DNA of 50,629 nt, from contig CAISYC010000039.1 in assembly GCA_903889565.1 (NCBI GenBank), positions 1 through 50,629 of the forward strand. Reading direction: 5' to 3'. A model generated the notes under the pieces. The model was not told the DNA's origin. It worked only from the letters and a program-made list of their open reading frames with translations, and ran no database searches. Within the stretch, counting starts at the first letter, position 1. The number at the start of each line of letters is the position of its first letter. A program made the position numbers and the translations under genes. Below are positions 443-14,199 of the stretch, piece by piece. Origin of the DNA: an uncultured beta proteobacterium (GTDB taxonomy: Bacteria > Pseudomonadota > Gammaproteobacteria > Burkholderiales > SG8-41).

Positions 443-1306
443 TCACGCAAAACACATCAGAGGTGCGCCAACCAGTATTGGCGTGCCTTCGGCAATGCCG
501 TCGTACAGGTTGAATCCGCGCGGTGCGAAAACGAGGATGGTCGAGCCGTGCTGGAACCAGCCCATCTGTTGGCCTTTTCGGTAGTCCGCATCGCAGGCGA
601 TCTCGTTCGGTCCCGGATAGTCGATATGCAGCAGGGCATCTACAAAATCAAGTTTGATGCTGGCGACCAGCACTGCGGCCACCGGCACCAGCACCAGTGC
701 CTGGCCGCCCGGCAGACGGGTAACGATAGCGGCACGCTCGTTTTTACAGAACAGTTTCTCGACGCGTTTCAGCGCAATCGGATTGACGTTCCAGGTGTCG
801 CCCGAGAAGTACGTGGTGCGTTCGACATGGCAGTCATAGGGCGCGTGGAAGCGGTGATACATGCTTGAGGTGATGCGCAGCGTGGCATAACAGCCGTCGC
901 GCACGAGGTCGATCGTCGCCGCGTCGCCGAGCAGTTCGTCGAGCGTGTAGGGAAAGCCTTTGGCCTGGAATACGCGCGTGCCGTCGATGCAGCCGCAGGC
1001 GCCGACGATGCCGTCGCAGGGACTCGTCAGCACCTGCGGATCGGTGTCGATGCGGCGCGCGCCGTCCTTGAGTTCGCGGATGAAGCAGTCGTGCAGGCTG
1101 TCAAAGCGGGTTTTCTTCGCTTCCGCGAGGTCGAGATCGGCGAAGCTTTTCCACAGCGCAATGGACAGGTCGCGGATCAGCGGCTGTTCGATCTTGCTGA
1201 ACCAGCCCATGAAGCGGGTCAAGGCCAGGCGCGGAATGCGGTTGGTGAGCAGGAAATTGAGGTCTTCCTGGAGAAACAGTCCGGCGAGGCGGGAGCGCAT
1301 GGTCAT
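443..1306 (-). CDS. psd: Phosphatidylserine decarboxylase proenzyme
   Basis: This 287-residue protein decarboxylates phosphatidylserine to phosphatidylethanolamine at the inner membrane, using a pyruvoyl group made by self-cleavage. The processing motif is HGST near residue 251 (QHGSTILVF), where the serine becomes the pyruvoyl group of the alpha chain. The other members of the Asp-His-Ser processing triad are visible as SPCDGIVG near residue 95 and YHRFHAP near 150. Length matches the normal bacterial family. There are two near-start ATGs (1306 and 1300) and no clear ribosome site. It is divergent from the aminotransferase gene with only about 60 bases between start codons, so their promoters must overlap. 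Family assignment is secure. Confidence 0.93.
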   Translation of the reverse strand: MTMRSRLAGLFLQEDLNFLLTNRIPRLALTRFMGWFSKIEQPLIRDLSIALWKSFADLDLAEAKKTRFDSLHDCFIRELKDGARRIDTDPQVLTSPCDGIVGACGCIDGTRVFQAKGFPYTLDELLGDAATIDLVRDGCYATLRITSSMYHRFHAPYDCHVERTTYFSGDTWNVNPIALKRVEKLFCKNERAAIVTRLPGGQALVLVPVAAVLVASIKLDFVDALLHIDYPGPNEIACDADYRKGQQMGWFQHGSTILVFAPRGFNLYDGIAEGTPILVGAPLMCFA

Positions 1307-1367
1307 CAGTTTGTAAAGTGTTTCAGGTAAATGAATGGCGCAAACGGATCATCAACCAAGGGAAGCC

Positions 1368-3077: not shown

Positions 3078-3683
3078 TCAGGCGTGCTGTTTGCCCAGAG
3101 CCGGATCGATCAGTTCGCCGCGCAGCAGGCACAGCGGCGCTTTGTAATAGAGCATCAGGTCGTGGAAGGGATCGGTCAGAATCTTGGTCATCCACACGAG
3201 GCCGGTCTGCACATCCTTCAGGAAGAACAGATGCACGGTGCGGAACAGCAGGCCGCCGACACCGATGACGAGCCAGGCAATGCCGACGCGGTGAATGTAG
3301 TCAATTTCCGAATTGGCTTCAAACAGGCCGAACAGCGTCGGATTGTAGTAAAGCACCACCGGCGCCGCCGCCCAGATGGCGAGCAGCACGATTTTGCGCT
3401 TCAGGTTATAGCCGACCTTGATCGACTCCTTGTATTCATGCGTGGCCTGATTGACTTCGTCGTAACCCTTGGGTTCGAAGAAGAAGTGGCCGGCCTGGCG
3501 GCTGACCATGGCGGCCAGCCAGCCGATCAGCGCTGCGGCAACCGGGTCGGTGAAAATGAACACGTAGGCGGTGAGAAAGCTCAGCGCGCTGACGAAATGC
3601 AGCGACTGGTTGATGCGGCTGTGGTGATAGTAGCGATGGTCGTCCCAGCGCTGAACCTTCAGGGCATGCAAAAAATCTTTCAT
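3078..3683 (-). CDS. Mpo1-like (DUF962-type) integral membrane protein
   Basis: The protein has 201 residues and about four hydrophobic segments. Near residue 19 it shows YYHHSRINQSLHFVSA and near 60 RQAGHFFFEP. These match the two histidine motifs of the Mpo1/DUF962 family (YHxxxxNxxLH and GHxxFE), whose yeast member is an iron-dependent dioxygenase of 2-hydroxy fatty acid oxidation. The spacing between motifs is shorter than in yeast Mpo1 and there is an extra C-terminal membrane pair, so this is a divergent relative and the reaction is not assured. The start ATG 3683 has GGAGACGT immediately upstream. A three-unit PhoB-like box lies 69 bases upstream and a terminator follows directly, so it is probably monocistronic. 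Confidence 0.6.
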   Translation of the reverse strand: MKDFLHALKVQRWDDHRYYHHSRINQSLHFVSALSFLTAYVFIFTDPVAAALIGWLAAMVSRQAGHFFFEPKGYDEVNQATHEYKESIKVGYNLKRKIVLLAIWAAAPVVLYYNPTLFGLFEANSEIDYIHRVGIAWLVIGVGGLLFRTVHLFFLKDVQTGLVWMTKILTDPFHDLMLYYKAPLCLLRGELIDPALGKQHA

Positions 3684-3721: not shown

Positions 3722-3751
3722 TGAATGGTGCCCTGCCGATGCTGCGGTTTG

Positions 3752-3780
3752 TTTACGGATGTTTTACAGCGCGGTGACAA
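3752..3780 (-). promoter_or_regulatory. PhoB-box-like triple repeat upstream of the Mpo1-like gene
   Basis: Read on the minus strand there are three 7-base units separated by 4 bases: TTGTCAC, CTGTAAA and CCGTAAA. The PhoB consensus unit is CTGTCAT/C with the same 11-bp period. The first 18 bases match the box before the OlsB-type gene at 14 of 18 positions. It lies between divergent genes (starts 3683 and 3860), so it could act on both. Confidence 0.5.
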
Positions 3781-3859
3781 TCCGGCAGTAACAAAAGCTT
3801 CAACCAAAATTGCGCGGGACTGTAATGATAGTTTCTTGAATCATTGCCATGATGGCGGC

Positions 3860-5104
3860 ATGGAAACAGACGGCATCATACTGGAGCAACTGCCCGTGAT
3901 GAATAAATCGCTGCGCGTCGCTTTTGTCACCGAGACCTATCCCCCCGAGGTCAACGGGGTCGCCAACACCGCCGCGTGTTTTGTCGAAGGCATGCGCGCG
4001 CGCAATCATGAAATCCAGCTGGTGCGGCCGCGCCAGAACCGCGCCGATCAGGCCGGCGAATATGCCGGGCTGCAGGAAGTCTTGATGCGCGGCCTGCCCA
4101 TTCCTAACTATCCGAGCCTGAAAATGGGCCTGCCTGCCAAACAGGCACTGGTCCGCATGTGGACGCGTCATCGGCCGGATGTCGTGCATATCGTCACCGA
4201 AGGGCCGCTCGGCTGGTCGGCGCTGCAGGCGGCTCTGAAGCTGAAAATACCGGTCAGTTCGGACTTTCGCACCAATTTCCACGCCTACAGCCGTCACTAT
4301 GGCATCGGCTGGCTGCAGAAGCCGATTGCCGCATATTTGCGCAAGTTTCACAACCGCACGCAATTGACGCTGGTGCCGACCGACTCGATGCGGCGCGAGC
4401 TGGCGACGCGCGGATTCCGCAATCTGCGGGTGGTTGCGCGCGGGGTCGATACCGCGCTGTTTACGCCAGCGCGGCGCAGCGAGGCACTGCGCGCGGAGTG
4501 GGGCGCGGCGGCGGACGATCTGGTGATTCTTTATGTTGGCCGCCTTGCGCCGGAAAAGAATCTGGATCCGGTGGTCGCGGCATACGAACGCATCCGCAGC
4601 ATTGAGCCGCGCGCCAAGCTGGTGTTTGTTGGTGACGGCCCGGCGCGCGACAGTCTGCGCGCGCGCCGTCCGGACGCGCACTATGCCGGCATGCGCACTG
4701 GCGAGGATCTCGCAGCGCATTACGCGTCCGGCGACGTTTTTCTGTTTCCGAGTCTGACTGAAACCTTCGGCAACGTGACAATTGAAGCAATGGCGAGCGG
4801 GCTGGCGGTGGTCGCTTACGATTACGCGGCGGCAGCTGAATATATTGCGCACGGCCGCAACGGCGTGCTGGCTGCATTCGACGATGCCGACGATTTCGTG
4901 CGCCTCGCGGCGGAACTGGTCGAACAGCGCGCCAATGTGCGCGCCTTCGGTCAACAGGCGCGCCTGAGCGCGGAACAACTGGCGTGGTCGCGCGTGGTCG
5001 GGCAGTTCGAAAGCCTGCTGATGAACGTTGCCGGCGCGCAGTCAGGGCCGCAGGGCGCTTTGACGATGGATGCGGTGGCCGGCGCCAGCGGTGCCGGCGG
5101 CTGA
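3860..5104 (+). CDS. GT4 glycosyltransferase, Agt-like (diacylglycerol glycosyltransferase candidate)
   Basis: A 414-residue two-Rossmann-domain (GT-B) glycosyltransferase of family GT4. Marks are the N-terminal VTETYPPEVNGVA glycine loop, VHIVTEGPLG, the acceptor-side HAYSRHYGIGWL, LYVGRLAPEKNLD at the domain linker, and the E-x7-E nucleotide-sugar motif in TETFGNVTIEAMASG. The start at 3860 was chosen by alignment with the paralogue at 12465-13685: METDGIILEQLP matches MESEQIIFQQLP. The longer ORF upstream is rejected. The paralogue is coupled to a PlcP-type phosphoesterase, and such enzymes make glycolipids from diacylglycerol under phosphate stress, so the same role is inferred here. Its end overlaps the opposing GT gene by 63 bases. 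Sugar donor unknown. Confidence 0.8.
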   Translation: METDGIILEQLPVMNKSLRVAFVTETYPPEVNGVANTAACFVEGMRARNHEIQLVRPRQNRADQAGEYAGLQEVLMRGLPIPNYPSLKMGLPAKQALVRMWTRHRPDVVHIVTEGPLGWSALQAALKLKIPVSSDFRTNFHAYSRHYGIGWLQKPIAAYLRKFHNRTQLTLVPTDSMRRELATRGFRNLRVVARGVDTALFTPARRSEALRAEWGAAADDLVILYVGRLAPEKNLDPVVAAYERIRSIEPRAKLVFVGDGPARDSLRARRPDAHYAGMRTGEDLAAHYASGDVFLFPSLTETFGNVTIEAMASGLAVVAYDYAAAAEYIAHGRNGVLAAFDDADDFVRLAAELVEQRANVRAFGQQARLSAEQLAWSRVVGQFESLLMNVAGAQSGPQGALTMDAVAGASGAGG

Positions 5105-6268
5105 CAGGCGCCGCGGCGCGGCAATCACCTCGGCGTAAAAAGCCGCCAAGCGTTCGGCTTGTCTGGCAGCGCTCCATTCCGCGGCGTAGGCGCGGCCTTC
5201 CCGTGAAAGACGCGCGCGCAGTGCCGGCGCGTCGAGCAGGCGGCACACCGCGTCGGCGAAGTTTTTCTCGTCGTGTTCCGCAACCAGCGCACCGCGGCCG
5301 GCATCAAGAATATCGCGCGTGCCCATTTCGGAAAGTGCGACGACGGGCACGCCCAGCGCCATCGCTTCGAGCAGCACCAGGCCCTGCGTTTCGGTGCGCG
5401 AGGCGAACACGAAAGCGTCGCCGGCGCGATAACAATCGAGCAGCGTGGTCGCGCGGTCCAGATAGCCGACGAACCGGACGCAGTCCTCGAGCAGCAGGCT
5501 GCGTACTAGCGCTTGCAGATGGGGCAACGCCGGGCCTTCACCGGCGATCAGCAGCATGGCGTCCGGATGGCGGACGCGCACGCGCAGCAGCGTATAGAGC
5601 AGAAAATCGATGTTTTTCTCGAAGGCGACGCGGCCGATGTGCACCAGCAGCGGTCGATCGGACGCGATGTCGTGCGCGCGCCTGAACGCGGCGCCGTCGC
5701 CGCCCGACAGTTCCTCCAGACGAACGCCGGTCGGCAGGATGGTCATCGGCGAATTCACGCCGTAGGCGCCAAGCGCGTCATGCATGGCGCGTGAGGGCAC
5801 CACCAGCGCATCGACCTGATTGCCCTGGCGGCGCGAAAATTCGCGCGCCAGCGCACGCATCAGTGCGCGCGGCGCGAACGGCACATAGTGATAGAGATAT
5901 TCTTCGAAAAACGTGTGATAGGTCGCCACGCAGGGAACGCCGAGCTCGCGCGCGATGCGCAGACCGGCGTAATGGGCGGCGAACGGCGTTTGTATATGCA
6001 CGAGGTCAAACGGCTGCCCGTCCAGGGCCGCCGGTAACGCGCGCAACGCGGCGCCAAGCATCAGGCGGTCTTCGGGATCCATTGGAATATTGCGTGCGGC
6101 GATGCGGACGATGCCTGCTTCGTCGGCGGTCGGTTGCCGTGGATAATCCGGCGTAACCACCGCGACTTCGTGTCCGAGCGCCTGCAATTCGCGACGGAAG
6201 GTGCGGATCGACGTCGAGACGCCGTTCACGCGCGGAAAATACACGTCGGAAATGTAGAGCAGGCGCAA
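5042..6268 (-). CDS. GT4 glycosyltransferase (second type)
   Basis: The protein has 408 residues and is a GT-B fold, GT4-family enzyme. It shows SDVYFPRVNGVSTSI at the N-terminus, the HIQTPFAAHYAG and TYHTFFEEYLYHY acceptor-side segments, HIGRVAFEKNIDFL at the linker, and the ExxE donor motif in SRTETQGLVLLEAMALG near residue 305. It is clearly divergent from the Agt-like pair in this window and resembles alpha-mannosyl/glucosyl-transferases and diacylglycerol glucosyltransferases (MgdA/AlgMGS-like HTFFEEY signature); the acceptor is inferred. It starts with ATG 6268 and its tail overlaps the converging glycosyltransferase by 63 bases. A PhoB-like box sits 44 bases before the start. Confidence 0.78.
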   Translation of the reverse strand: MRLLYISDVYFPRVNGVSTSIRTFRRELQALGHEVAVVTPDYPRQPTADEAGIVRIAARNIPMDPEDRLMLGAALRALPAALDGQPFDLVHIQTPFAAHYAGLRIARELGVPCVATYHTFFEEYLYHYVPFAPRALMRALAREFSRRQGNQVDALVVPSRAMHDALGAYGVNSPMTILPTGVRLEELSGGDGAAFRRAHDIASDRPLLVHIGRVAFEKNIDFLLYTLLRVRVRHPDAMLLIAGEGPALPHLQALVRSLLLEDCVRFVGYLDRATTLLDCYRAGDAFVFASRTETQGLVLLEAMALGVPVVALSEMGTRDILDAGRGALVAEHDEKNFADAVCRLLDAPALRARLSREGRAYAAEWSAARQAERLAAFYAEVIAAPRRLSAAGTAGAGHRIHRQSALRP

Positions 6269-6311
6269 AGTCCGTCCATCAAGTCGAGACGCGCCAATGT
6301 GCCAGATTCAG

Positions 6312-6329
6312 GTTACCGTTTTGCTACAG
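6312..6329 (-). promoter_or_regulatory. PhoB-box-like repeat upstream of the GT4 gene
   Basis: On the minus strand the units CTGTAGC and CGGTAAC are separated by AAAA, giving 10 of 14 matches to two CTGTCAC units. The box ends 44 bases before the GT start at 6268, nearly the same distance as in front of dgkA and the OlsB-type gene. Weak on its own; the shared position supports it. Confidence 0.4.
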
Positions 6330-6360
6330 TCAGTCCTCGCGTCGCCGCGCAAGCGGTCAG

Positions 6361-6792
6361 TCAAGCCGCGGGCAGCAGGATTTCATTGACCGCGCCGCGC
6401 GGTATATCGCCGCTGAGCACGTCGAGGATATTGCGCGCCGCCTCGATTTCAGCTTCAGCGTCTTCGCGGCGCATGGCGACATTGGTGACCCAGATGCCAC
6501 GCCGGGTGCAGGCGGCGACATCGATATGCTCTGGAAGGCGGAAGGTGCAGGCGATCACCTGCAAACGCGGAAACTCGTCCAGCAGCTTGTCGTCGATTCG
6601 TTCCGGCGAGGCCAACTGCAGCGCCTGGGCGCAACCGGCCACCAGTGCGAAGTCACGGCGGCGGTCGCCGCCAAGATCCACGCGCGGCAGAATGTCGCAT
6701 ACGGTGATCAGCATTTCGATGGCGGCCGGCACCACCGGTCGCGAAATCAAGACGAAGGGTTTCAGCCGGTGCTCCCTGAAATGACGCCGCAT
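6361..6792 (-). CDS. D-2-hydroxyacid dehydrogenase catalytic-domain protein lacking the NAD-binding domain
   Basis: This 143-residue protein aligns with the two ends of D-isomer-specific 2-hydroxyacid dehydrogenases. Residues 10-100 match the N-terminal substrate lobe (LDEFPRLQVIACTFRLPEHIDVAACTRRGIWVTN). Residues 108-140 match the C-terminal helix that returns to that lobe (EIEAARNILDVLSGDIPRGAVN). The ~180-residue Rossmann domain that normally lies between them, with GxGxxG and the catalytic Arg/Glu/His, is missing. It resembles the phosphite-dehydrogenase (PtxD) branch most in my reading. The frame is open and clean. Either an in-frame internal deletion made an inactive remnant, or a standalone substrate-binding lobe is kept. 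It follows the OlsB-type gene by 66 bases and is probably cotranscribed. Confidence 0.6.
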   Translation of the reverse strand: MRRHFREHRLKPFVLISRPVVPAAIEMLITVCDILPRVDLGGDRRRDFALVAGCAQALQLASPERIDDKLLDEFPRLQVIACTFRLPEHIDVAACTRRGIWVTNVAMRREDAEAEIEAARNILDVLSGDIPRGAVNEILLPAA

Positions 6793-6858
6793 GGCGCCTC
6801 CACGAAGGCAAGCTTAGCGATCAATTGTTGCAGTCGATGCGGCGACGCGGCGCATGAT

Positions 6859-7620
6859 TCAGGGCAGGGCGCGCAGAAAGTGGCGCGGGTAACGCGGGTC
6901 CATCCGCGCGACCGGCAGCATCATCAGCAGATCGGCGGTGTTGAAATCCGGATCCCACGCCGGCGCGCTGCAGACATAGGCGCCGACCTTGAGGTAGCCC
7001 TTGATAAGCGGCGGCAGTCTGATCGCCGAGGCTGTTACGGCATAGGCGTCGAGCGGCAGTTCGCAGCGCGGGAAGGCACGGTATTCGATCGGGCTCAGAT
7101 GCGTGGATTGCAGGCGGTGGTAAAGGGATGCCGCCATCTGGCCGCCATCGGCCATGCCGACGCTGGCGCAGCCGATGATGTATTGGTAGCTGTGGGTCTG
7201 CACGTAACGCAGAATGCCCGACCACAGCAGCGCGATCGTCGCGCCCGAGCGGTAATTCATGTGCACGCAGGAACGGCCGATCTCGACCGTCTGCCCGCGC
7301 AGGTGGTTGAGGCGCGTCAGATCAAATTCCTCTTCGGCATAGTAGCCGCCTATGCGGCGTGCCGCCGCCGGCGTCAGGATGCGGTAGGTGCCGACGACCT
7401 GGCCGGTGACGCTGTCGCGCACGATCAGGTGTTCGCAGTAGGGATCGAACATGTCGCAATCGATGCCGCGCTCGGCTCCGGCGACGCGTGCGCCCATTTC
7501 CTCGGCAAACACCTTGTAGCGCAGACGTTGTGCTTCGAATACTTCCTGTTCGCCGCGCGCGATCGATACTTCGAGCGGGGGGCGTTGTTCAGGACGGCCT
7601 CTGACAAGGCGCTGCAGCAT
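6859..7620 (-). CDS. olsB: GNAT/hemolysin-type N-acyltransferase, OlsB-like (ornithine lipid synthesis candidate)
   Basis: The 253-residue protein belongs to the acyl-ACP-dependent N-acyltransferase family related to acyl-homoserine-lactone synthases. Marks are EAQRLRYKVFAEEMGA near residue 30, DMFDPYCEHLIVRD near 56, VGTYRIL near 76, and VEIGRSCVHMNYRSG with IIGCASVGMADG further on. OlsB transfers a 3-hydroxyacyl chain from ACP to the alpha-amino group of ornithine, the first step to ornithine lipids; these phosphorus-free lipids replace phospholipids when phosphate is scarce. OlsA, needed for the second step, is not in this window, so the exact product is inferred. The start at 7620 is supported by GGAGATC upstream. 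A PhoB-like box lies 46 bases before it. Divergent from ppx. Confidence 0.75.
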   Translation of the reverse strand: MLQRLVRGRPEQRPPLEVSIARGEQEVFEAQRLRYKVFAEEMGARVAGAERGIDCDMFDPYCEHLIVRDSVTGQVVGTYRILTPAAARRIGGYYAEEEFDLTRLNHLRGQTVEIGRSCVHMNYRSGATIALLWSGILRYVQTHSYQYIIGCASVGMADGGQMAASLYHRLQSTHLSPIEYRAFPRCELPLDAYAVTASAIRLPPLIKGYLKVGAYVCSAPAWDPDFNTADLLMMLPVARMDPRYPRHFLRALP

Positions 7621-7649
7621 GCGTGATCTCCATGAATGAAAACCGCGCC

Positions 7650-7683
7650 ACGTTAAACACGCGCAGTTACAGCGCGGTGAAGA
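7650..7683 (-). promoter_or_regulatory. PhoB-box-like repeat and -10 upstream of the OlsB-type gene
   Basis: At 7666-7683 the minus strand reads TCTTCAC-CGCG-CTGTAAC, a 7-4-7 arrangement. Ten bases downstream is a possible -10 (TAACGT, 7650-7655). The CACCGCGCTGTAA core is shared with the box upstream of the Mpo1-like gene. It ends 46 bases before the start codon. Confidence 0.45.
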
Positions 7684-7766
7684 AAATCTTGCGAAATGGT
7701 TAAGCGGCGCCTTGAAAGGGCCGTCCGGATCGCAAAAAATCCGTGGCAGGCACGCCGCGAATTGCC

Positions 7767-7772
7767 TATACT
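7767..7772 (+). promoter_or_regulatory. Possible -10 element of ppx
   Basis: TATACT is a good sigma-70 -10 hexamer, 81 bases before the ppx ATG; a weak -35 (GTGGCA, 7743-7748) lies 18 bases upstream. A TTGTCAC lies nearer the gene (7816-7822) but has no partner unit at 11-bp spacing, so I do not claim a PhoB box here. Confidence 0.35.
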
Positions 7773-7853
7773 TGTAACCATCGTGAAAACGCGTGATTCA
7801 ACAGATTTTGTCACTGCGTACCGTCTGTTTTGCGGCGGGGAGTTTTAGCCGAA

Positions 7854-9374
7854 ATGGCGGTCTACTCCACACTTGCCGCGGTCGATCTCGGTTCGAATTC
7901 CTTCCATCTGCAGGTCGCGCGCGCCGTCGGTGACCAGATTTATCCACTCGATTCCCTGCGCGAGCCGATCCGGCTCGGCGCCGGCCTGAATCGCGAAAAG
8001 CGGCTCGATGAGGAATCGCAGCAGCGCGCACTCGATTGTCTGAAGCGTTTCGGCGAGCGCCTGCGCGGCTTCGACCGCCATGCGGTGCGCGCGGTCGGCA
8101 CCAATACGCTGCGGGTGGCGAAAAATTCCGCGGCCTTCCTGAAGCAGGCGCAGGCGGCGCTCGGATTTCCGATCGAGGTCGTCGCCGGCCGCGAAGAGGC
8201 GCGCCTGATCTATCTCGGCGTTTCGCACAGCCTGCCGGTCTCAGTGGACAAGCGGCTGGTCGTCGATATCGGCGGCGGTTCCACCGAGTTCATCATCGGC
8301 CGCGCGTTCAAGCCCCTGCGCCTGGACAGCACCTACATGGGTTGCGTCAGCTACAGCCGCAAATATTTCGACGACGGCAGGATCACCAAGGGCGCGATGA
8401 AGCGCGCCGAACTGGCGGCGCGCAACGAATTGCAGACGCTGACTGCCGGATTCGCGCGCGGCAACTGGCAGGAGGCCTACGGTTCGTCGGGCACGGCGCG
8501 CGCACTGGCGGAAATTCTGCAACTGAACGGTTTCAGCGACGGCGCCATTACCGCCGACGGGCTCGAAATGCTGCGCGCCGCGATGATACGCGCCGGCAAT
8601 ATCGAGGTGCTGGATCTCAAGGGCCTGAAGAGCGACCGCCGGCCAGTGATTGCCGGCGGCCTCGCCATCATGAGCGCGGTGCTCGCCGAACTCGGCATTG
8701 AATCGATGGGCGTGGCGGGCGGCGCGATGCGCCAGGGCATACTGTACGATCTGCTCGGCCGCACCCAACATCACGATATGCGCGACGTCACGGTTTCGCA
8801 GTTCATGCAGCGCTATCATGTCGATTCGCGGCAGGCGCGGCGCGTCGCCGCGCTGGCGGTCGATTTGTTTGCGTTGTTCACGCAGGCCGACGAAAGCCCC
8901 GACGACACTGCGCCGCAGTACCTGGCGTGGGCGGCAAAACTGCACGAGATCGGAATATCGGTGGCCTACAGCGGGTATCACCGCCATTCCGCTTACATCG
9001 TGCAGAATGCCGACATGCCGGGTTTTTCAAAGATGGAACAGGCGCAGTTGTCGATGCTGCTGCTAGGTCATCGCCGCACTTTGCGCAAATTGTTTGCCGG
9101 CGGCGAGACCGCAATCGACTGGCGCATGGTGATGGCGCTGCGGCTGGCGGCGTTGATGCTGCGCAACCGTGCCGACATAGAACGCCCGCCGATAGTCGCC
9201 AAGGCCGGCAACCGCAGCCTGCGTCTCGATATCGATCGCGACTGGCTGGCGCGCAATCCGCTGACCGTCACCGCGCTCGAAGAAGAGGTCGAGGAGTGGA
9301 ATGCGACCGATTACCGGCTCGATATCCGTACGCTGCGCGAACCTGAAAACGCGCCGGAGGCGCAGGCCGCCTGA
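7854..9374 (+). CDS. ppx: Exopolyphosphatase (Ppx/GppA family)
   Basis: The 506-residue protein removes terminal phosphate from polyphosphate (and may act on pppGpp as GppA relatives do). It has the actin-like ATPase fold: phosphate-1 loop AAVDLGSNSFHLQVARA at the N-terminus, the VGTNTLRVAKN segment near 90, the catalytic Glu region AGREEARLIYLGVSHSL near 115, and phosphate-2 loop VVDIGGGSTEFIIG near 137. An HD-like C-terminal domain follows (LHEIGISVAYSGYHRHSAYIVQNADMPGFS split over 365-395). ATG 7854 with GGGGAG upstream was preferred to an in-frame TTG at 7830. It converges with ppk at 26 bases, the usual pairing of polyphosphate breakdown and synthesis. Confidence 0.93.
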   Translation: MAVYSTLAAVDLGSNSFHLQVARAVGDQIYPLDSLREPIRLGAGLNREKRLDEESQQRALDCLKRFGERLRGFDRHAVRAVGTNTLRVAKNSAAFLKQAQAALGFPIEVVAGREEARLIYLGVSHSLPVSVDKRLVVDIGGGSTEFIIGRAFKPLRLDSTYMGCVSYSRKYFDDGRITKGAMKRAELAARNELQTLTAGFARGNWQEAYGSSGTARALAEILQLNGFSDGAITADGLEMLRAAMIRAGNIEVLDLKGLKSDRRPVIAGGLAIMSAVLAELGIESMGVAGGAMRQGILYDLLGRTQHHDMRDVTVSQFMQRYHVDSRQARRVAALAVDLFALFTQADESPDDTAPQYLAWAAKLHEIGISVAYSGYHRHSAYIVQNADMPGFSKMEQAQLSMLLLGHRRTLRKLFAGGETAIDWRMVMALRLAALMLRNRADIERPPIVAKAGNRSLRLDIDRDWLARNPLTVTALEEEVEEWNATDYRLDIRTLREPENAPEAQAA

Positions 9375-9399
9375 CCGCCTTGTTGCGCGCCGACGGCGT

Positions 9400-11484
9400 T
9401 CAGGCGCCGGTTTTTGCCGCGAGCAGATCCAGCAATATGTTTTGCGCGTGACCGGCGCGGCCGCGCTTGCCCTTGTGGAAACGATATTGTCCGTCAGCGC
9501 CCATTTCCCAGGCTTCGATGTCGCGGCCGAGGTAGGGATTAAGCCCCTCGCGCAGCACGCGTCGCTTCAGGCGCGGCTCCAGCACCGGAAAACAGATCTC
9601 AATGCGGCGGAAGAAGTTGCGGTCCATCCAGTCGGCGCTCGACAGATAGACGTCCTCGGCACCGCCGTTGTGAAAATAAAACACGCGGCTGTGTTCGAGA
9701 AACCGTCCCAGTACCGAGCGCACGCGGATGTTGTCCGACACGCCGGGCAGTCCGGGGCGCAGGGCGCAGACGCCGCGCACAATGAGGTCGATGCTGACGC
9801 CGGCCTGGGATGCGGCATACAGCGCGGCAATGATTTCCGGCTCGAGCAGCGCGTTCATGCGGGCGATGATGCGGCCCTTGCCGCCGGCGGTGGCGTTGCG
9901 CGCCTCGTTCTGGATGGCGCGGATGACGCGCTGGTGCAGGGTGAACGGCGCCTGCCACAAATGTTTGAGTTTGCTCGCCTTGCCGAGGCCGGTTAGCTGC
10001 ATGAATACTTCGTTGACGTCGGCGCAGATCTCTTCGTTGCAGGTGAACAGGCCGAAGTCCGTGTAGAGCATGGCGGTGCGCGAGTGGTAGTTGCCGGTTG
10101 ACAGGTGAACATAGCGGCGCAGCGCGCTGCCTTCGCGCCGCACCACCAGGGCCATTTTGGCATGCGTTTTGTGACCGACCACGCCGTAGATGACATGCGC
10201 GCCGGCTTCTTCGAGGCGCTGCGCCCAGTTGATATTGGCTTCTTCGTCGAAGCGCGCCATCAATTCGACCACCACCGTCACTGCCTTGCCGCTGCGCGCA
10301 GCCTGCATGAGCAATTCCATCATCGCCGACTGCGCGCCGGTGCGATAGACCGTTTGCTTGATGGCGACGACCTGCGGATCGTTGGCCGCCTGCTCAATAT
10401 AGTTGATGACCGGCGCAAAGGACTGGAATGGATGGTGCAGCAGAATGTCGCCGCGGCGGATGCAGTCAAACACGTTCGGCGTGCGCGTCAATTCGCGCGG
10501 CACGCCCTGGACCAGCGGCGGAAACTGGAGTTGCGGGCGGTCCACCTTGTTGGCGATCTGTAAAAGTCGCACCAGGTTGACCGGGCCGTTGACCTGGTAG
10601 AGGTCCTGGTCGGTGAGACCGAACTGCAGCAGCAGAGCGTCGGCGAGGCGGCGCGGGCAATTGTCGGCGACCTCAAGGCGCACGCTGTCGCCGAACTGGC
10701 GCTGCGAAAGTTCGCCCTGCAGCGCCTTGCGCAGGCTTTTGAGTTCGCGCAGTTCCTCTTCGTCGATATAGAGATCGCTGTTGCGCGTAAGCTGGAACTG
10801 GTGGCAGCCGAGCACGGTCATGCCCGGGAACAGTTCGCCGACATGCGCGTGAAGGATGGACGACAGAAACATGAAGCCGTGTTCGCAGCCGGCAACCGAA
10901 CGCGGCAGCGTGATCACGCGCGGCAGCACGCGCGGTGCCTGCACGATCGCCATGCTCGATTTGCGGCCGAAGGCGTCCTTGCCCTCCAGCTCAACCACGA
11001 AGTTGAGGCTCTTGTTGAGCAGACGCGGAAACGGATGCGAGGGATCGAGTCCCATCGGCGTCAGCACCGGCATCAGTTCGCGAAAAAAATAGTCGCGTAC
11101 CCACGCTTTTTGCGCGGTGGTCCACTTGGTCCGGCGCAGGATGCGGATGCCCTCGGCGGCCAGCTGCGGCAACACGTCGTTGTTCAATATCGCATATTGC
11201 CGTTCGACCAGCTCGCGCGTGACCTGGGCGATGCGCTTGAACACCTGATCGAGCGGCATGCCGTCCGGACCGGGCGGCGAGCCTGCAGCGATCTGCTCTT
11301 TGAGTCCGGCGACGCGGATCTCGAAGAATTCGTCGAGATTGCTGTCAACGATGCAAAGATAGCGCAGGCGTTCCAGTGCCGGCATGCGGCGGTCTTCCGC
11401 CAGTGCGAGCACACGCCGGTTGAAATCCAGCTGGCCTAGTTCACGGTTGAGATAAAGCTCTGGGGGTAGTACGGTTTTGGCCAT
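9400..11484 (-). CDS. ppk1: Polyphosphate kinase 1
   Basis: At 694 residues this is a full-length PPK1, which reversibly transfers the ATP gamma-phosphate to polyphosphate. Visible are the N-terminal ELYLNRELGQLDFNRRVL, the PVLTPMGLDPSHPFP loop, AIKQTVYRTG and the phospholipase-D-like histidine motif GVVGHKTHAKMALVVRR (near residue 440) whose histidine is autophosphorylated. The second histidine is in FLEHSRVFYFHNGG, and the C-terminus has DWMDRNFFRRIEICFPV. The start ATG 11484 begins MAKTVLPPE. An upstream PhoB-like box and -10 element suggest induction by phosphate starvation. It converges on ppx. The assignment is secure. Confidence 0.96.
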   Translation of the reverse strand: MAKTVLPPELYLNRELGQLDFNRRVLALAEDRRMPALERLRYLCIVDSNLDEFFEIRVAGLKEQIAAGSPPGPDGMPLDQVFKRIAQVTRELVERQYAILNNDVLPQLAAEGIRILRRTKWTTAQKAWVRDYFFRELMPVLTPMGLDPSHPFPRLLNKSLNFVVELEGKDAFGRKSSMAIVQAPRVLPRVITLPRSVAGCEHGFMFLSSILHAHVGELFPGMTVLGCHQFQLTRNSDLYIDEEELRELKSLRKALQGELSQRQFGDSVRLEVADNCPRRLADALLLQFGLTDQDLYQVNGPVNLVRLLQIANKVDRPQLQFPPLVQGVPRELTRTPNVFDCIRRGDILLHHPFQSFAPVINYIEQAANDPQVVAIKQTVYRTGAQSAMMELLMQAARSGKAVTVVVELMARFDEEANINWAQRLEEAGAHVIYGVVGHKTHAKMALVVRREGSALRRYVHLSTGNYHSRTAMLYTDFGLFTCNEEICADVNEVFMQLTGLGKASKLKHLWQAPFTLHQRVIRAIQNEARNATAGGKGRIIARMNALLEPEIIAALYAASQAGVSIDLIVRGVCALRPGLPGVSDNIRVRSVLGRFLEHSRVFYFHNGGAEDVYLSSADWMDRNFFRRIEICFPVLEPRLKRRVLREGLNPYLGRDIEAWEMGADGQYRFHKGKRGRAGHAQNILLDLLAAKTGA

Positions 11485-11536
11485 ATTCCATGCGGCCGGC
11501 AGACGGTCGCCGCAGGGCAGACACCAGCCGACTCCG

Positions 11537-11583
11537 ATATTGCAACGCTAGTGTAACAATATATCGACAGGCAATTGTTACAG
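11537..11583 (-). promoter_or_regulatory. ppk1 promoter: PhoB-like box, inverted repeat and -10
   Basis: On the minus strand CTGTCGA-TATA-TTGTTAC (11553-11570) has two 11-bp-spaced units, and a further CTGTAAC lies at 11577-11583. Ten bases after the box is CAATAT (11537-11542), a plausible -10. The same bases form a perfect 9-bp inverted repeat, TGTAACAAT at 11552-11560 and ATTGTTACA at 11574-11582, centred 22 bp apart, so a dimeric regulator other than PhoB is the alternative. Confidence 0.45.
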
Positions 11584-11625
11584 TCGCCGGCAAATCCCGC
11601 ACAGCCGGCTCTCCCGGGGCCGGGG

Positions 11626-12468
11626 TCAGGCGACCGGCGCTTCAGCGATCGCCACGGCGCTTGCCGCGTTGGCTTCGGCGGGATGGGTCCAGCGCACCAA
11701 TTGCATCCGGCCGTCATATTGTTCGATGATGGCGGTGCAACTGTCGACCCAGTCGCCGCAATTGATATAGGTCATGCCGTCGATGCGCTTGATCACCGGC
11801 GTGTGTATGTGTCCGCAGATCACGCCGTCCAGACCGCGTTTCTTGATGTTGCGGACAACCGAATTTTCAAAGTCGCCGATAAAGCTGACCGCGCGCAGCA
11901 CATTGCGCTTGGCGTAATCCGCGAGTGACCAGTGGCCGCTGACGCCGAGTTTGCGCCGGATCAGTGAAAGCAGGCGATTCACATGCACCAGCATGGTGTA
12001 GGAAACATCGCCAAGTATCGACGCCCAGCGGTGATAGGTGGTGACCTGGTCGTATTCGTCGCCGTGGATCAGCGCATAGCGGCGGCCGTCCGCGGCGGTG
12101 TAAACATAATCGCGCATGACCTCGATGTCGCCGAAGGAACTGCCGACATATTCGCGCAACGCTTCGTCATGGTTGCCGGGGATCAGGCAGACGCGCACGC
12201 GATGGCGCGCCTTTTTCAGAATTTTCTGCACGACGGTGTTGTGCTCGGGCGGCCAGTAGAGGCTGCGGCTCATCGCCCAGAAATCGACAATGTCGCCGAG
12301 CAGAAAGATATTCGACGGCTCGTAGGCTTTCAGGAAATCGAGCAGTTCGTCGGCGCGGCAGGCGCGCGAGCCGAGGTGGATGTCGGAGAGAAACAGCGAG
12401 CGGATTTTGCGCGGGCCTTCCGGCAGCGGCTGATTGGCGGTGGTATCCATCGCGTCAGGTGCATTCAT
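11626..12468 (-). CDS. plcP: PlcP/LpxH-type metallophosphoesterase (phospholipase C candidate)
   Basis: A 280-residue calcineurin-like phosphoesterase of COG2908. All metal ligands are visible: SDIHLG (near 28), LGDIVDFW (near 57), PGNHDE (near 97), IHGDEYD (near 135) and CGHIHTP (near 220). Annotation pipelines usually call it UDP-2,3-diacylglucosamine diphosphatase (LpxH). The ~280-residue length, the YWPPEHN and YINCGDWVDSCTA segments, and the 4-bp ATGA overlap with an Agt-type glycosyltransferase fit PlcP better. In rhizobia and marine bacteria PlcP splits phosphatidylethanolamine and phosphatidylglycerol to diacylglycerol when phosphate is low, and the partner glycosyltransferase uses the diacylglycerol. 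The assignment to PlcP rather than LpxH is inference from context. Confidence 0.72.
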   Translation of the reverse strand: MNAPDAMDTTANQPLPEGPRKIRSLFLSDIHLGSRACRADELLDFLKAYEPSNIFLLGDIVDFWAMSRSLYWPPEHNTVVQKILKKARHRVRVCLIPGNHDEALREYVGSSFGDIEVMRDYVYTAADGRRYALIHGDEYDQVTTYHRWASILGDVSYTMLVHVNRLLSLIRRKLGVSGHWSLADYAKRNVLRAVSFIGDFENSVVRNIKKRGLDGVICGHIHTPVIKRIDGMTYINCGDWVDSCTAIIEQYDGRMQLVRWTHPAEANAASAVAIAEAPVA

Positions 12469-13685
12469 GCGGAAAGGCGGTTTTCGATCGCGTTGGTGTG
12501 CGCGCGGCCGCTGATGACTTCGCGCAACGCTGCCTCGAAAATGTCATGCACCACCTCCCAGTCAATCTTTTCGGCAGTTGCGCGCGCCGCCGTCCCCAAA
12601 GCGTTTCTGCGCGACGCATTGGTGGCCACGCGCACGGCAATATTGATGAAGTCCTGCGTTTTGTCGAATGGCGCGAGCAATCCGTTTTTGCCGTCGCGAA
12701 TGTATTCGGCGGCGGCTGCATAATCGTAGGCGCAGACCGCCAGACCGCTTGCCAGCGCCTCTACCGTGACATTGCCGAAAGTTTCGGTGGTGCTCGGAAA
12801 CAAAAAGATGTCCGCCGAGGCGTAATGTTCGGCGAGTGCCTCGCCGGTCTGCATTCCGGCGAAGACGACGTCCGGGTGGCGCGCCTCCAGCGCCGGCCGC
12901 TCGGGGCCGTCGCCGACCAGCACGAGTCGCGTGTCGGGCACCGCATTGCGCATGGCATCGTACGCCTTGATCACCACCGGCAGGTTCTTTTCAGGCGCGA
13001 GGCGGCCGACGTATAACGCCACCGGCTGCTCGGGAGTCACGCCCCACTGATTACGCAAAACATTGCTGCGGCGTCGTGGTGTAAACAAACCGGTATCGAC
13101 ACCCCGCGGAACCACGCGCAGATTCAGGTAGCCGTGCCCATCGAGGCCGTCGCGCATCGACGCGGTCGGCACGATGGTGGCCTGCGATTTGTTATGAAAC
13201 CTGCGCAAATAACCCGAGATCGGTTTGCGCAGCCAGCCGATACCGTAATGGCGGCTGTAGCTGTGAAAATTCGTGTGGAAATCGGAACTGCATGGAATGC
13301 GCAGCTTGAGCGCCGCGGCCAGCGCCGAAAAGCCGAGCGGCCCTTCGGTGACGATGTGCACGATATCCGGCCGGTTGAGCGACCACAGGCGAATCAGCGC
13401 CTGTTTGGCCGGCAGGCCCATCTTGAGATTTTCGGAGCGCGGAATCGACATTCCCTTGCGCAGCACTTCCTCGAAGCGCGGCCCGGCGGCTGCAAAGTCG
13501 TTGCGGCTCTGGCGCGGGCGGATCAGCTGAATTTCGTGATTGCGCGCGCGCAGGCCCTCGATCATGCGGTGTATCGTGATGGCCACGCCGTTGATTTCGG
13601 GCGGATAGGTCTCTGTAACAACTGCGACGCGCATGCTGCGGCGGGCGGCCGGCAGTTGTTGGAAGATGATCTGCTCACTCTCCAT
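12465..13685 (-). CDS. GT4 glycosyltransferase, Agt-like, operon partner of the PlcP-like gene
   Basis: The protein has 406 residues and is a close paralogue of the one at 3860-5104, alignable over almost the whole length (VTETYPPEINGVAITIHRM, HIVTEGPLGFSALAAALKL, HSYSRHYGIGWL, LYVGRLAPEKNLPVV, TETFGNVTVEALASG). It is a GT-B retaining enzyme with the ExxE donor motif in the last of these. Its stop codon overlaps the start of the PlcP-like gene by four bases, so translation is coupled. In PlcP-Agt systems the glycosyltransferase converts diacylglycerol into glucosyl- or glucuronosyl-diacylglycerol; the sugar here is unknown. A three-unit PhoB-like box lies upstream. The family is secure; the acceptor is inferred. 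Confidence 0.82.
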   Translation of the reverse strand: MESEQIIFQQLPAARRSMRVAVVTETYPPEINGVAITIHRMIEGLRARNHEIQLIRPRQSRNDFAAAGPRFEEVLRKGMSIPRSENLKMGLPAKQALIRLWSLNRPDIVHIVTEGPLGFSALAAALKLRIPCSSDFHTNFHSYSRHYGIGWLRKPISGYLRRFHNKSQATIVPTASMRDGLDGHGYLNLRVVPRGVDTGLFTPRRRSNVLRNQWGVTPEQPVALYVGRLAPEKNLPVVIKAYDAMRNAVPDTRLVLVGDGPERPALEARHPDVVFAGMQTGEALAEHYASADIFLFPSTTETFGNVTVEALASGLAVCAYDYAAAAEYIRDGKNGLLAPFDKTQDFINIAVRVATNASRRNALGTAARATAEKIDWEVVHDIFEAALREVISGRAHTNAIENRLSA

Positions 13686-13719
13686 CTGCGGGATTCTGAT
13701 CGCCGATCGCGTATTTTCA

Positions 13720-13748
13720 ATGACGGTTGTGTGAAGCTTTGATGACGC
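13720..13748 (-). promoter_or_regulatory. PhoB-box-like triple repeat upstream of the agt-plcP operon
   Basis: On the minus strand three units, GCGTCAT, GCTTCAC and CCGTCAT, are spaced by 4 bases each (11-bp period). Matches to CTGTCAT/C are 5, 4 and 6 of 7. The box ends 35 bases before the start codon at 13685, or 46 bases if only the distal pair is used. Confidence 0.55.
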
Positions 13749-13769
13749 GTGCCGTTTTGCGCGGCCGCT

Positions 13770-14138
13770 TCACTGAAGCACGGCGAACACCCACACCGTG
13801 ACGACATTGGCGATCGACAGCAGTACTGCGGCGCTGCCGAGATCCTTGGCGCGCTTGGCCAATGCGTGGTCTTCGAGCGAGACGCGGTCGGTGACCGCTT
13901 CGATGCCGGAGTTGAGGAGTTCGACGATGAGGACGCCGAGCACGCTCGATATCATCAGGCATTTCATGGTCGCACTGACCGGAATGAATACGGCGGCCGG
14001 GATCAGGATGCTGGCGAGCAACAGTTCCTGCCGGAACGCATCTTCGTGCTTGAAGGCGGCAGCCAGCCCGTCGAAGGAGTAAAACAGCGCGTTCCATACG
14101 CGCTTGAGTCCGGTCTTGCCTTTATACGGGCTTTCCAT
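13770..14138 (-). CDS. dgkA: Diacylglycerol kinase (prokaryotic DgkA family)
   Basis: The 122-residue, three-helix membrane protein phosphorylates diacylglycerol to phosphatidic acid. The family signature is visible as ELLNSGIEAVTDRVSLEDHALAKRAKDLGSAAV, with the N-terminal amphipathic RVWNALFYSFDGLAAAFKHEDAFRQE before it (quoted in pieces of the same protein). Three hydrophobic segments lie at about residues 37-55, 57-75 and 100-120. The start was set at ATG 14138 (MESPYKGKTG), which gives the normal family length; the longer ORF upstream is rejected. The best PhoB box of the window lies 44 bases upstream. With PlcP making diacylglycerol nearby, DgkA would return part of it to the phospholipid pathway. 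Confidence 0.9.
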   Translation of the reverse strand: MESPYKGKTGLKRVWNALFYSFDGLAAAFKHEDAFRQELLLASILIPAAVFIPVSATMKCLMISSVLGVLIVELLNSGIEAVTDRVSLEDHALAKRAKDLGSAAVLLSIANVVTVWVFAVLQ

Positions 14139-14165
14139 CGCGGGGCCGTTGCGTTGAAAGCGCGC

Positions 14166-14199
14166 AGCGTACGCGCAACATGTGACAAGGCTATGACAG
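14166..14199 (-). promoter_or_regulatory. Near-perfect PhoB box and -10 upstream of dgkA
   Basis: The minus strand reads CTGTCAT-AGCC-TTGTCAC at 14182-14199: 13 of 14 unit positions match the PhoB consensus, with exact 7-4-7 spacing. Ten bases after it is TACGCT (14166-14171), a plausible -10. The start codon is 44 bases from the box. Confidence 0.7.

Follow-up and report, generated by a model that had tools for sequence, protein, structure and literature searches.

A predicted PhoB-dependent island of lipid genes in an uncultured beta proteobacterium

A block of genes thought to serve the formation of phosphorus-free membrane lipids in an uncultured beta proteobacterium is predicted to be a Pho-regulon island, a reading that we hold with a probability of roughly 0.87. 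The block occupies the first 17 kb of contig C39, which at its full length of 50,629 bases is the window analysed here and belongs to a 5.04-Mb genome of 74 contigs. The block comprises psd, a class-III aminotransferase gene (amt), an Mpo1-like gene (mpo1), the glycosyltransferase genes gtA (+ strand) and gtB (- strand), hyp143, an olsB-like gene, ppx, ppk1, a plcP-like gene, agt and dgkA, with hadh (2-hydroxyacid dehydrogenase) and acs (acyl-CoA-ligase-like) divergent from dgkA; hyp143 is a small 2-hydroxyacid-dehydrogenase-like open reading frame (ORF). An earlier note had placed PhoB-box-like repeats before six of these genes and joined the lipid and polyphosphate genes in one phosphate-starvation regulon. 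For the lipid genes (dgkA-agt-plcP, olsB, mpo1, gtB and gtA) a shared regulon is a well supported prediction, because orthologous promoters carry the boxes, the -10 hexamers are phased with them, the geometry is that of pstS promoters, and phoX and pstS are neighbours in relatives. The polyphosphate half of the proposal is weak, because the ppk1 box is found in the genus only and is decayed here, while the ppx box is not conserved.

The PhoB system and the pstS promoters

The genome has a pst-phoU-phoB-phoR run at C73:90616-97255, in which pstS, one permease gene, phoU, phoB (frame at C73:95184-95849) and phoR are recognised by Pfam and pstA and pstB by position only. The effector domain of the PhoB protein matches that of E. 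coli PhoB (1gxp, 147 bits). In promoters of this kind the PhoB box takes the place of the -35 element. A pstS match is present in 73 of 120 genomes, and pstS promoters from 30 loci provide the yardstick. All 30 contain a direct-repeat box with 11-14 of 14 matches, and in 29 the hexamer NANNNT lies exactly 10 nucleotides (nt) past the box, compared with a mean of 0.04 at other offsets; with a narrower choice of sites the count is 27 of 29. The -10 hexamer of the own-genome pstS is TACCAT. The 18-mer matrix behind the scores below was built from the pstS boxes of 29 relatives, with the own-genome pstS excluded.

Operator architecture

The operators read from aligned promoters consist of 7-nt repeats with an 11-nt phase. 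Two repeats are present at dgkA, olsB, gtB and gtA, and four at agt and mpo1, where the final ones are degenerate (AATACGC at agt); the last repeat lies 10 nt ahead of the -10. Two 7-nt direct repeats 4 nt apart, as at pstS, occur at dgkA, mpo1, olsB, gtB, agt and gtA and are absent at ppk1 of the window. The six box sequences of the earlier note are all found on the minus strand where it had located them, and its count of 13 of 14 matches for dgkA is correct against CTGTCAY repeats. Its 7-4-7 pairs at agt and mpo1 mark conserved sites that are really four-repeat arrays, and the divergent gtA promoter (3820-3853, +) was missing from its list. It had also described three boxes as ending 44-46 bases before their start codons; the distances are 45 nt for olsB and 43 nt for both gtB and dgkA (ATG at 14138). 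The possible -10 that it saw ten bases downstream is conserved at dgkA and olsB. No convincing box of their own was found for plcP (best upstream score -2.2) or hyp143.

Single boxes and composite sites

By matrix score over the roughly 101k positions of both strands, the sites of mpo1 (rank 2, with a second register at 9), dgkA (3) and gtB (4) stand out on rank alone. The sites of olsB (19), agt (27 and 80, in two registers) and ppk1 (85) bear out the admission in the earlier note that several boxes are individually weak; these remaining sites are carried by conservation and promoter geometry. Rank 1 goes to a site within the ppk1 leader, on the + strand and facing no gene. The dgkA box is one of five exact YTGTMAYN4YTGTMAY sites in the genome. 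With one mismatch allowed, this bare pattern has 27 genome sites against 20 for a reversed-pattern control, so lone weak boxes carry little weight, and bare box density was rejected as proof. Among 338 own-genome control genes, nine have an upstream box scoring 12 or more. A score at least equal to that of the cluster gene is reached by 0.9% of the control genes in the case of mpo1, 1.8% for ppx, 2.1% for olsB, 3.0% for gtB, 5.0% for agt and 19% for ppk1, with dgkA and gtA left out since the automatic gene caller mis-started them. This control is harsh, because 13 of its 20 stretches were chosen around pattern hits.

The composite YTGTMAYN4YTGTMAYN10YANNNT matches exactly only at dgkA and pstS in the whole genome. 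With up to two mismatches it has 24 genome sites against six for the reversed pattern. The window, 1% of the genome, contains three of these 24 (dgkA, gtB, olsB). Among 19 others inspected (C17:12461 was left out), two on C57 are upstream of a second pstS homolog and of a PHO4 phosphate transporter gene; another six fall within predicted genes and several are far from any gene, so a good part of the composite sites is probably due to chance.

A composite scan of the window trained on pstS gives dgkA 24.5, mpo1 18.5, olsB 18.1 and gtA 16.0, all within the best five, and gtB 12.9. Scores of 14 or more occur at nine of the window's positions, compared with 11 of 737,608 own-genome control positions. 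Four of the nine are the proposed promoters of dgkA, mpo1, olsB and gtA; the others are two reversed sites in the ppk1 leader, one near 14.2 kb and two near 24.4 kb in unrelated genes. The + strand composite in the ppk1 leader (11529-11584), the second best of the window at 20.5, faces no gene and was set aside as a by-product of near-palindromic repeats.

The strongest composite site of the control stretches, also scoring 24.5, lies at C19:12949-12982 (-) of the same genome (locus L036 of genome G000). It is 39 nt upstream of an ORF that by eye is STAS-like; next come an ORF judged ATPase-like, also by eye, and a gene that Pfam assigns to the SpoIIE phosphatases. Contig C19 also bears a second PhoB-like regulator and an Mpo1-like paralog.

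Conservation of the promoters

The genus counts that follow include the window, and several promoters are nearly the same in G001 and G006. At dgkA, eight of nine promoters score 16 or more, with the site at 39-50 nt. The olsB box is present in five of five promoters, each exactly 45 nt from the start, and the mpo1 box in seven of seven, at 79-81 nt. At agt the best site lies at 23-44 nt in all eight promoters, with scores of 4.4-16.8, seven of them 8 or more. The gtA element CTGTMAT-N4-STTTCTY lies at 22 nt in five of seven promoters; G003 has the same element by eye, and it was not found in the gtA promoter of G011. For gtB, five of six score 8 or more, and the scored site is close to that of the window in only three of six; inspection by eye shows a weak box, with NANNNT 10 nt further, in all six, window included. 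Support for gtB is weaker than for dgkA, olsB, mpo1 and agt.

In the matrix scan with shuffled controls that the earlier note had called for, none of 200 dinucleotide shuffles attains the mean best-box score of dgkA, agt, olsB, mpo1, gtA, gtB or ppk1, while shuffles do as well as the observed sequence in 126 cases for ppx, 59 for hadh (window sequence only) and 133 for acs. Half-site columns are more conserved than other upstream DNA at dgkA (0.74 vs 0.34), olsB (0.83 vs 0.42), mpo1 (0.81 vs 0.47), gtA (0.89 vs 0.47) and gtB (0.67 vs 0.37), with the smallest gap of the six sets at agt (0.65 vs 0.53); G001, G011 and the boxless dgkA promoter of G002 are left out of this comparison. Counted for boxes of 8 or more without hand placement, NANNNT lies 10 nt past the best box in 8/8 dgkA, 4/4 ppk1, 5/5 olsB, 4/5 gtA and 3/5 gtB promoters, at +21 in 5/7 agt promoters and at +32 in 6/7 mpo1 promoters.

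The phasing extends to the 75 loci beyond the four nearest (L058-L132). A -10 at +10, +21 or +32 is present in 64 of 66 agt/gtA promoters (4.4 with shifted offsets) and a phased -10 in 45 of 45 olsB promoters (4.1 with shifted offsets), boxes under 5 (8/74 agt/gtA, 1/46 olsB) having been dropped. By sequence these boxes are often weak, with 12 or more in 10/74 agt/gtA and 19/47 olsB promoters. Of 67 agt/gtA promoters whose -10 is phased, 62 have the first in-frame start codon 6-8 nt beyond this hexamer, 43 at exactly 7 nt; leaderless mRNAs are therefore predicted for agt and gtA.

Neighbouring phosphate genes

The stretches fetched from six relatives contain phoX (tblastn), in all six with a box and TANNNT 10 nt on, by eye. 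In G005 and G006, the two tested by Pfam, phoX lies between hyp143 and olsB (PF05787, E values 4e-176 and 1.4e-177). In three relatives (G003, G001, G006) pstS is divergent from dgkA at a distance of 0.9-1.05 kb. These neighbours link the block to phosphate starvation independently of any motif. No PF05787 match exists in the own genome, which is 99.7% complete, so phoX has apparently been lost from it. The place where G005 and G006 carry phoX corresponds to 6793-6858 of the window, where the flanking genes are adjacent.

The polyphosphate genes

A conserved element precedes ppk1 in G005, G012, G004 and G006: CTGTAAC, 4 nt, then TTGTCAC, TTGTAAT, CTGTAAT or TTGCAAC, and TANNNT after 10 nt. In the window the second repeat is displaced by 2 nt, giving 7-6-7 spacing at the conserved slot (11566-11583). 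The ppk1 box of the earlier note (11553-11570) was rejected, as it does not coincide with the conserved element and overlaps the conserved -10. The box is intact in four of six genus-set promoters, those of the window and G007 being the other two. A ppk1 match was found in 63 of 74 genomes, and 30 family promoters were examined; a box of 8 or more is present in five, all in the genus, and in none of the 19 promoters examined outside the genus. With 25 family promoters, the window's included, lacking such a box, it is rather unlikely that ppk1 of the window is also activated by PhoB, whether through the earlier register or through a rearranged operator, even though related genomes have intact boxes, the box of the earlier note is indeed followed at 10 nt by the hexamer CAATAT, and the -10 TACACT is conserved. 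In four genomes ppk1 adjoins pstS or lies within 4 kb of it (G017:C110, G055:C78, G032:C345, G021:C5); the G032 promoter, the sole one of these scored, has 2.5 and no box.

The box before ppx (7772-7789, +, score 14.4) was also rejected, being missing from the five other promoters of its set.

Counter-evidence and alternative explanations

Several observations weigh against a PhoB-controlled island. Taken singly, the agt, olsB and gtB boxes of the window are weak, and agt is outside its 20 best composite sites. The dgkA promoter of G002 has no box, and since just nine of 53 dgkA promoters in L058-L132 score 5 or more, the dgkA box is mostly a genus feature. Dinucleotide shuffles ignore the relatedness of the promoters, and their counts are also low for psd (1/200), plcP (3/200), amt (0/200) and hyp143 (0/200); because psd, plcP and hyp143 are rarely matched despite low scores, the shuffle test alone is lenient. 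DgkA would counteract glycolipid synthesis. The best structural matches of full-length PhoB are other OmpR-family regulators (MtrA, 169 bits), and a second PhoB-like regulator (C19:553-1230) exceeds the family cut-off.

This second regulator, or another of the OmpR/PhoB family, in which binding to tandem repeats is common, might occupy the operators in response to a different envelope or lipid stress. Such an assignment is improbable, because repeat, phase and -10 spacing are the same as in the pstS promoters (29/30) and because phoX and pstS are neighbours in relatives, despite two proteins passing the PhoB family cut-off. Least probable is a chance origin of the boxes, as random matches in intergenic DNA of higher AT content joined by a reader expecting a theme: the near-control frequency of the bare pattern, the low ranks of the ppk1 and agt sites and the minority of proposed promoters among the nine window composites are met by cross-species conservation (for dgkA, olsB, mpo1 and agt), by fixed spacing to the -10, and by a composite excess over a control biased towards pattern hits, and chance is still likely for the earlier ppk1 register and ppx.

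The Mpo1-like gene beyond the genus

Mpo1-like homologs are sparse, occurring in 35 of 300 genomes of the order. The set compared has 31 loci (28 outside the genus and three genus paralogs), of which 29 could be scored. The promoter scores 8 or more in 24 of the 29 and 12 or more in 15; of the 24, 20 also show a phased -10, compared with 3.2 with shifted offsets. Eleven Mpo1-like proteins, 66-78% identical to that of the window, have invariant H16, H20, H29, H66 and H82. Nine of ten homologs fall below the PF06127 gathering score of 24 and one has 24.3, all ten with E below 0.001; since the window protein is also under this score, it is called Mpo1-like only. The gene, whose protein is strongly conserved, may belong to the Pho regulon wherever it is present in this betaproteobacterial order, performing an as yet undescribed phosphorus-free remodelling step (perhaps on 2-hydroxy acyl chains), with the agt mRNA leaderless and driven by PhoB; this combined proposal is tentative, at slightly less than even odds.

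Proposed mechanism and relation to known systems

Gene families, box conservation, promoter geometry and the agreement with the sites at pstS are observed; PhoB binding, phosphate response, enzyme activities and operon structure are predicted. When phosphate is scarce, phosphorylated PhoB would bind the 11-nt-phased direct repeats in place of a -35 element and, with the last repeat 10 nt ahead of the -10, would recruit sigma70 RNA polymerase. It would act separately at dgkA, agt-plcP, olsB-like, gtB and mpo1, and divergently at gtA. PlcP would strip phosphate off phospholipids to give diacylglycerol, from which Agt and its paralogs would rebuild glycolipids; DgkA would recycle surplus diacylglycerol, and the OlsB-like enzyme would make ornithine-type lipids.

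PlcP-Agt and OlsB are known or predicted PhoB targets in other bacteria, so the type of regulon is already known. Pho boxes are described for plcP-agt1 and agt2 of P. aeruginosa, where PhoBR governs lipid renovation (PMC8528852), and for plcP clusters of marine bacteria (PMC4796936). As in these systems, agt and plcP are adjacent here with a Pho box upstream, and an additional agt paralog is boxed; unlike them, a separately boxed dgkA precedes the pair on the same strand, and the agt operator has four repeats with the start codon 7 nt past the -10. For Burkholderia sensu lato, olsB Pho boxes are reported in 21 of 43 genomes, and in 43 of 43 with a second matrix (PMC7814305). The likeness is a Pho box ahead of an OlsB N-acyltransferase gene in Burkholderiales; here, from sequence alone, the 45-nt position and the -10 phase were tested within a block of boxed genes. 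The canonical PHO box has 11-nt tandem units of seven conserved and four loose bases and a sigma70 contact (PMC4415409). Repeat units, PhoBR and pstS are common to both, and the predicted members here differ in including an Mpo1-like gene, dgkA and GT4 paralogs.

The additions made here are the set of members, the way dgkA is arranged, the Mpo1-like gene as a member, and the arrays of operator repeats. The Mpo1-like gene as a Pho member beyond the genus, the boxed (mostly genus-limited) dgkA and the leaderless agt mRNA are possibly new; no report of PhoB control of an Mpo1-like/DUF962 gene, or of dgkA with plcP, was recognised in the literature surveyed, which consisted of listings with most subscription journals outside their scope. 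The operator grammar (11-nt repeats, 10 nt to the -10) is usable for finding Pho promoters in Betaproteobacteria. With these results, the prediction that glycolipid and ornithine-lipid genes are under phosphate control reaches many uncultured lineages, and an uncharacterised enzyme gene, the Mpo1-like one, is flagged as apparently co-regulated with them.

Gene identities and other features

The names agt, plcP and olsB are putative and follow from domains and neighbourhood, no NCBIfam cut-off being passed among the matches listed. The best NCBIfam model for agt is monoglucosyl-diacylglycerol synthase (140.9 bits, cut-off 400). The plcP-like gene adjoins a GT4 agt gene with a Pho box, the genomic arrangement of PlcP-Agt lipid remodelling; neither gene exceeds the cut-off of a listed model. 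NCBIfam OlsB models rank best for the olsB-like gene with 176.8 bits, below the cut-off of 320, so the gene is named olsB-like. ORF 13717-14097 has no Pfam family match.

Table 1. Genes and putative promoter elements of the block (window positions)
Feature	Position	Strand	Sequence or product	Basis
dgkA	13770..14138	-	diacylglycerol kinase, 122 amino acids	PF01219, 108.8 bits
dgkA PhoB box	14182..14199	-	CTGTCAT AGCC TTGTCAC	exact genome-wide match; genus conservation
dgkA -10	14166..14171	-	TACGCT, 10 nt past box	phased -10 in genus; composite match
agt	12465..13685	-	GT4 glycosyltransferase	Pfam GT4 domains
agt-plcP operator	13709..13748	-	GCGTCAT/GCTTCAC/CCGTCAT/AATACGC, four 11-nt-phased repeats	from sequence; orthologs compared by eye
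agt -10	13693..13698	-	CAGAAT, 7 nt ahead of ATG	aligned promoters
plcP-like	11626..12468	-	metallophosphoesterase	PF00149
ppk1	9400..11484	-	polyphosphate kinase 1	TIGR03705, 925.5 bits (cut-off 465.85)
ppk1 box position, decayed	11566..11583	-	CTGTAAC AATT GCCTGTC	compared with G005, G012, G004, G006
ppk1 -10	11550..11555	-	TACACT	NANNNT at +10 in 4/4 boxed orthologs
olsB-like	6859..7620	-	N-acyltransferase	PF13444 (GNAT domain)
olsB-like PhoB box	7666..7683	-	TCTTCAC CGCG CTGTAAC	45 nt to start; genus conservation
olsB-like -10	7650..7655	-	TAACGT	aligned promoters; phased -10 count; composite match
gtB	5042..6268	-	GT4 glycosyltransferase	Pfam
gtB PhoB box	6312..6329	-	CTGTAGC AAAA CGGTAAC	matrix rank; genus set; composite
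gtB -10	6296..6301	-	CACATT	by eye in aligned promoters
gtA	3860..5104	+	second agt paralog, 61% identical to agt	sequence comparison
gtA PhoB box	3820..3837	+	CTGTAAT GATA GTTTCTT	22-nt site in 5/7; composite 16.0
gtA -10	3848..3853	+	CATGAT, 6 nt ahead of ATG	aligned promoters; composite scan
Mpo1-like	3078..3683	-	201 amino acids	PF06127, 20.9 bits (below 24-bit gathering cut-off)
Mpo1-like operator	3741..3780	-	TTGTCAC/CTGTAAA/CCGTAAA/CCGCAGC, four repeats, 11-nt phase	genus conservation; composite 18.5
Mpo1-like -10	3725..3730	-	CACCAT	NANNNT at offset 32 in 6/7

Among relatives that have a name, those whose agt is closest mostly carry a label of Betaproteobacteria or Burkholderiales metagenome-assembled genomes; the one with the nearest agt is labelled Chitinophaga pinensis, a label that does not fit its content. 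Thiobacillus thioparus DSM 505 (locus L100), a cultivable relative with agt and olsB loci, has a gene for a zinc-dependent phospholipase C (L100:10813-11685, -) close to agt, and this enzyme possibly stands in for PlcP. Between psd and amt, at 1300-1317 (+), an NNKTCAT-N4-TTGTAAA-like element with a score of 10.1 recurs in relatives; it overlaps psd start codons, its +10 hexamer is without the final T, and it may be a further Pho promoter.

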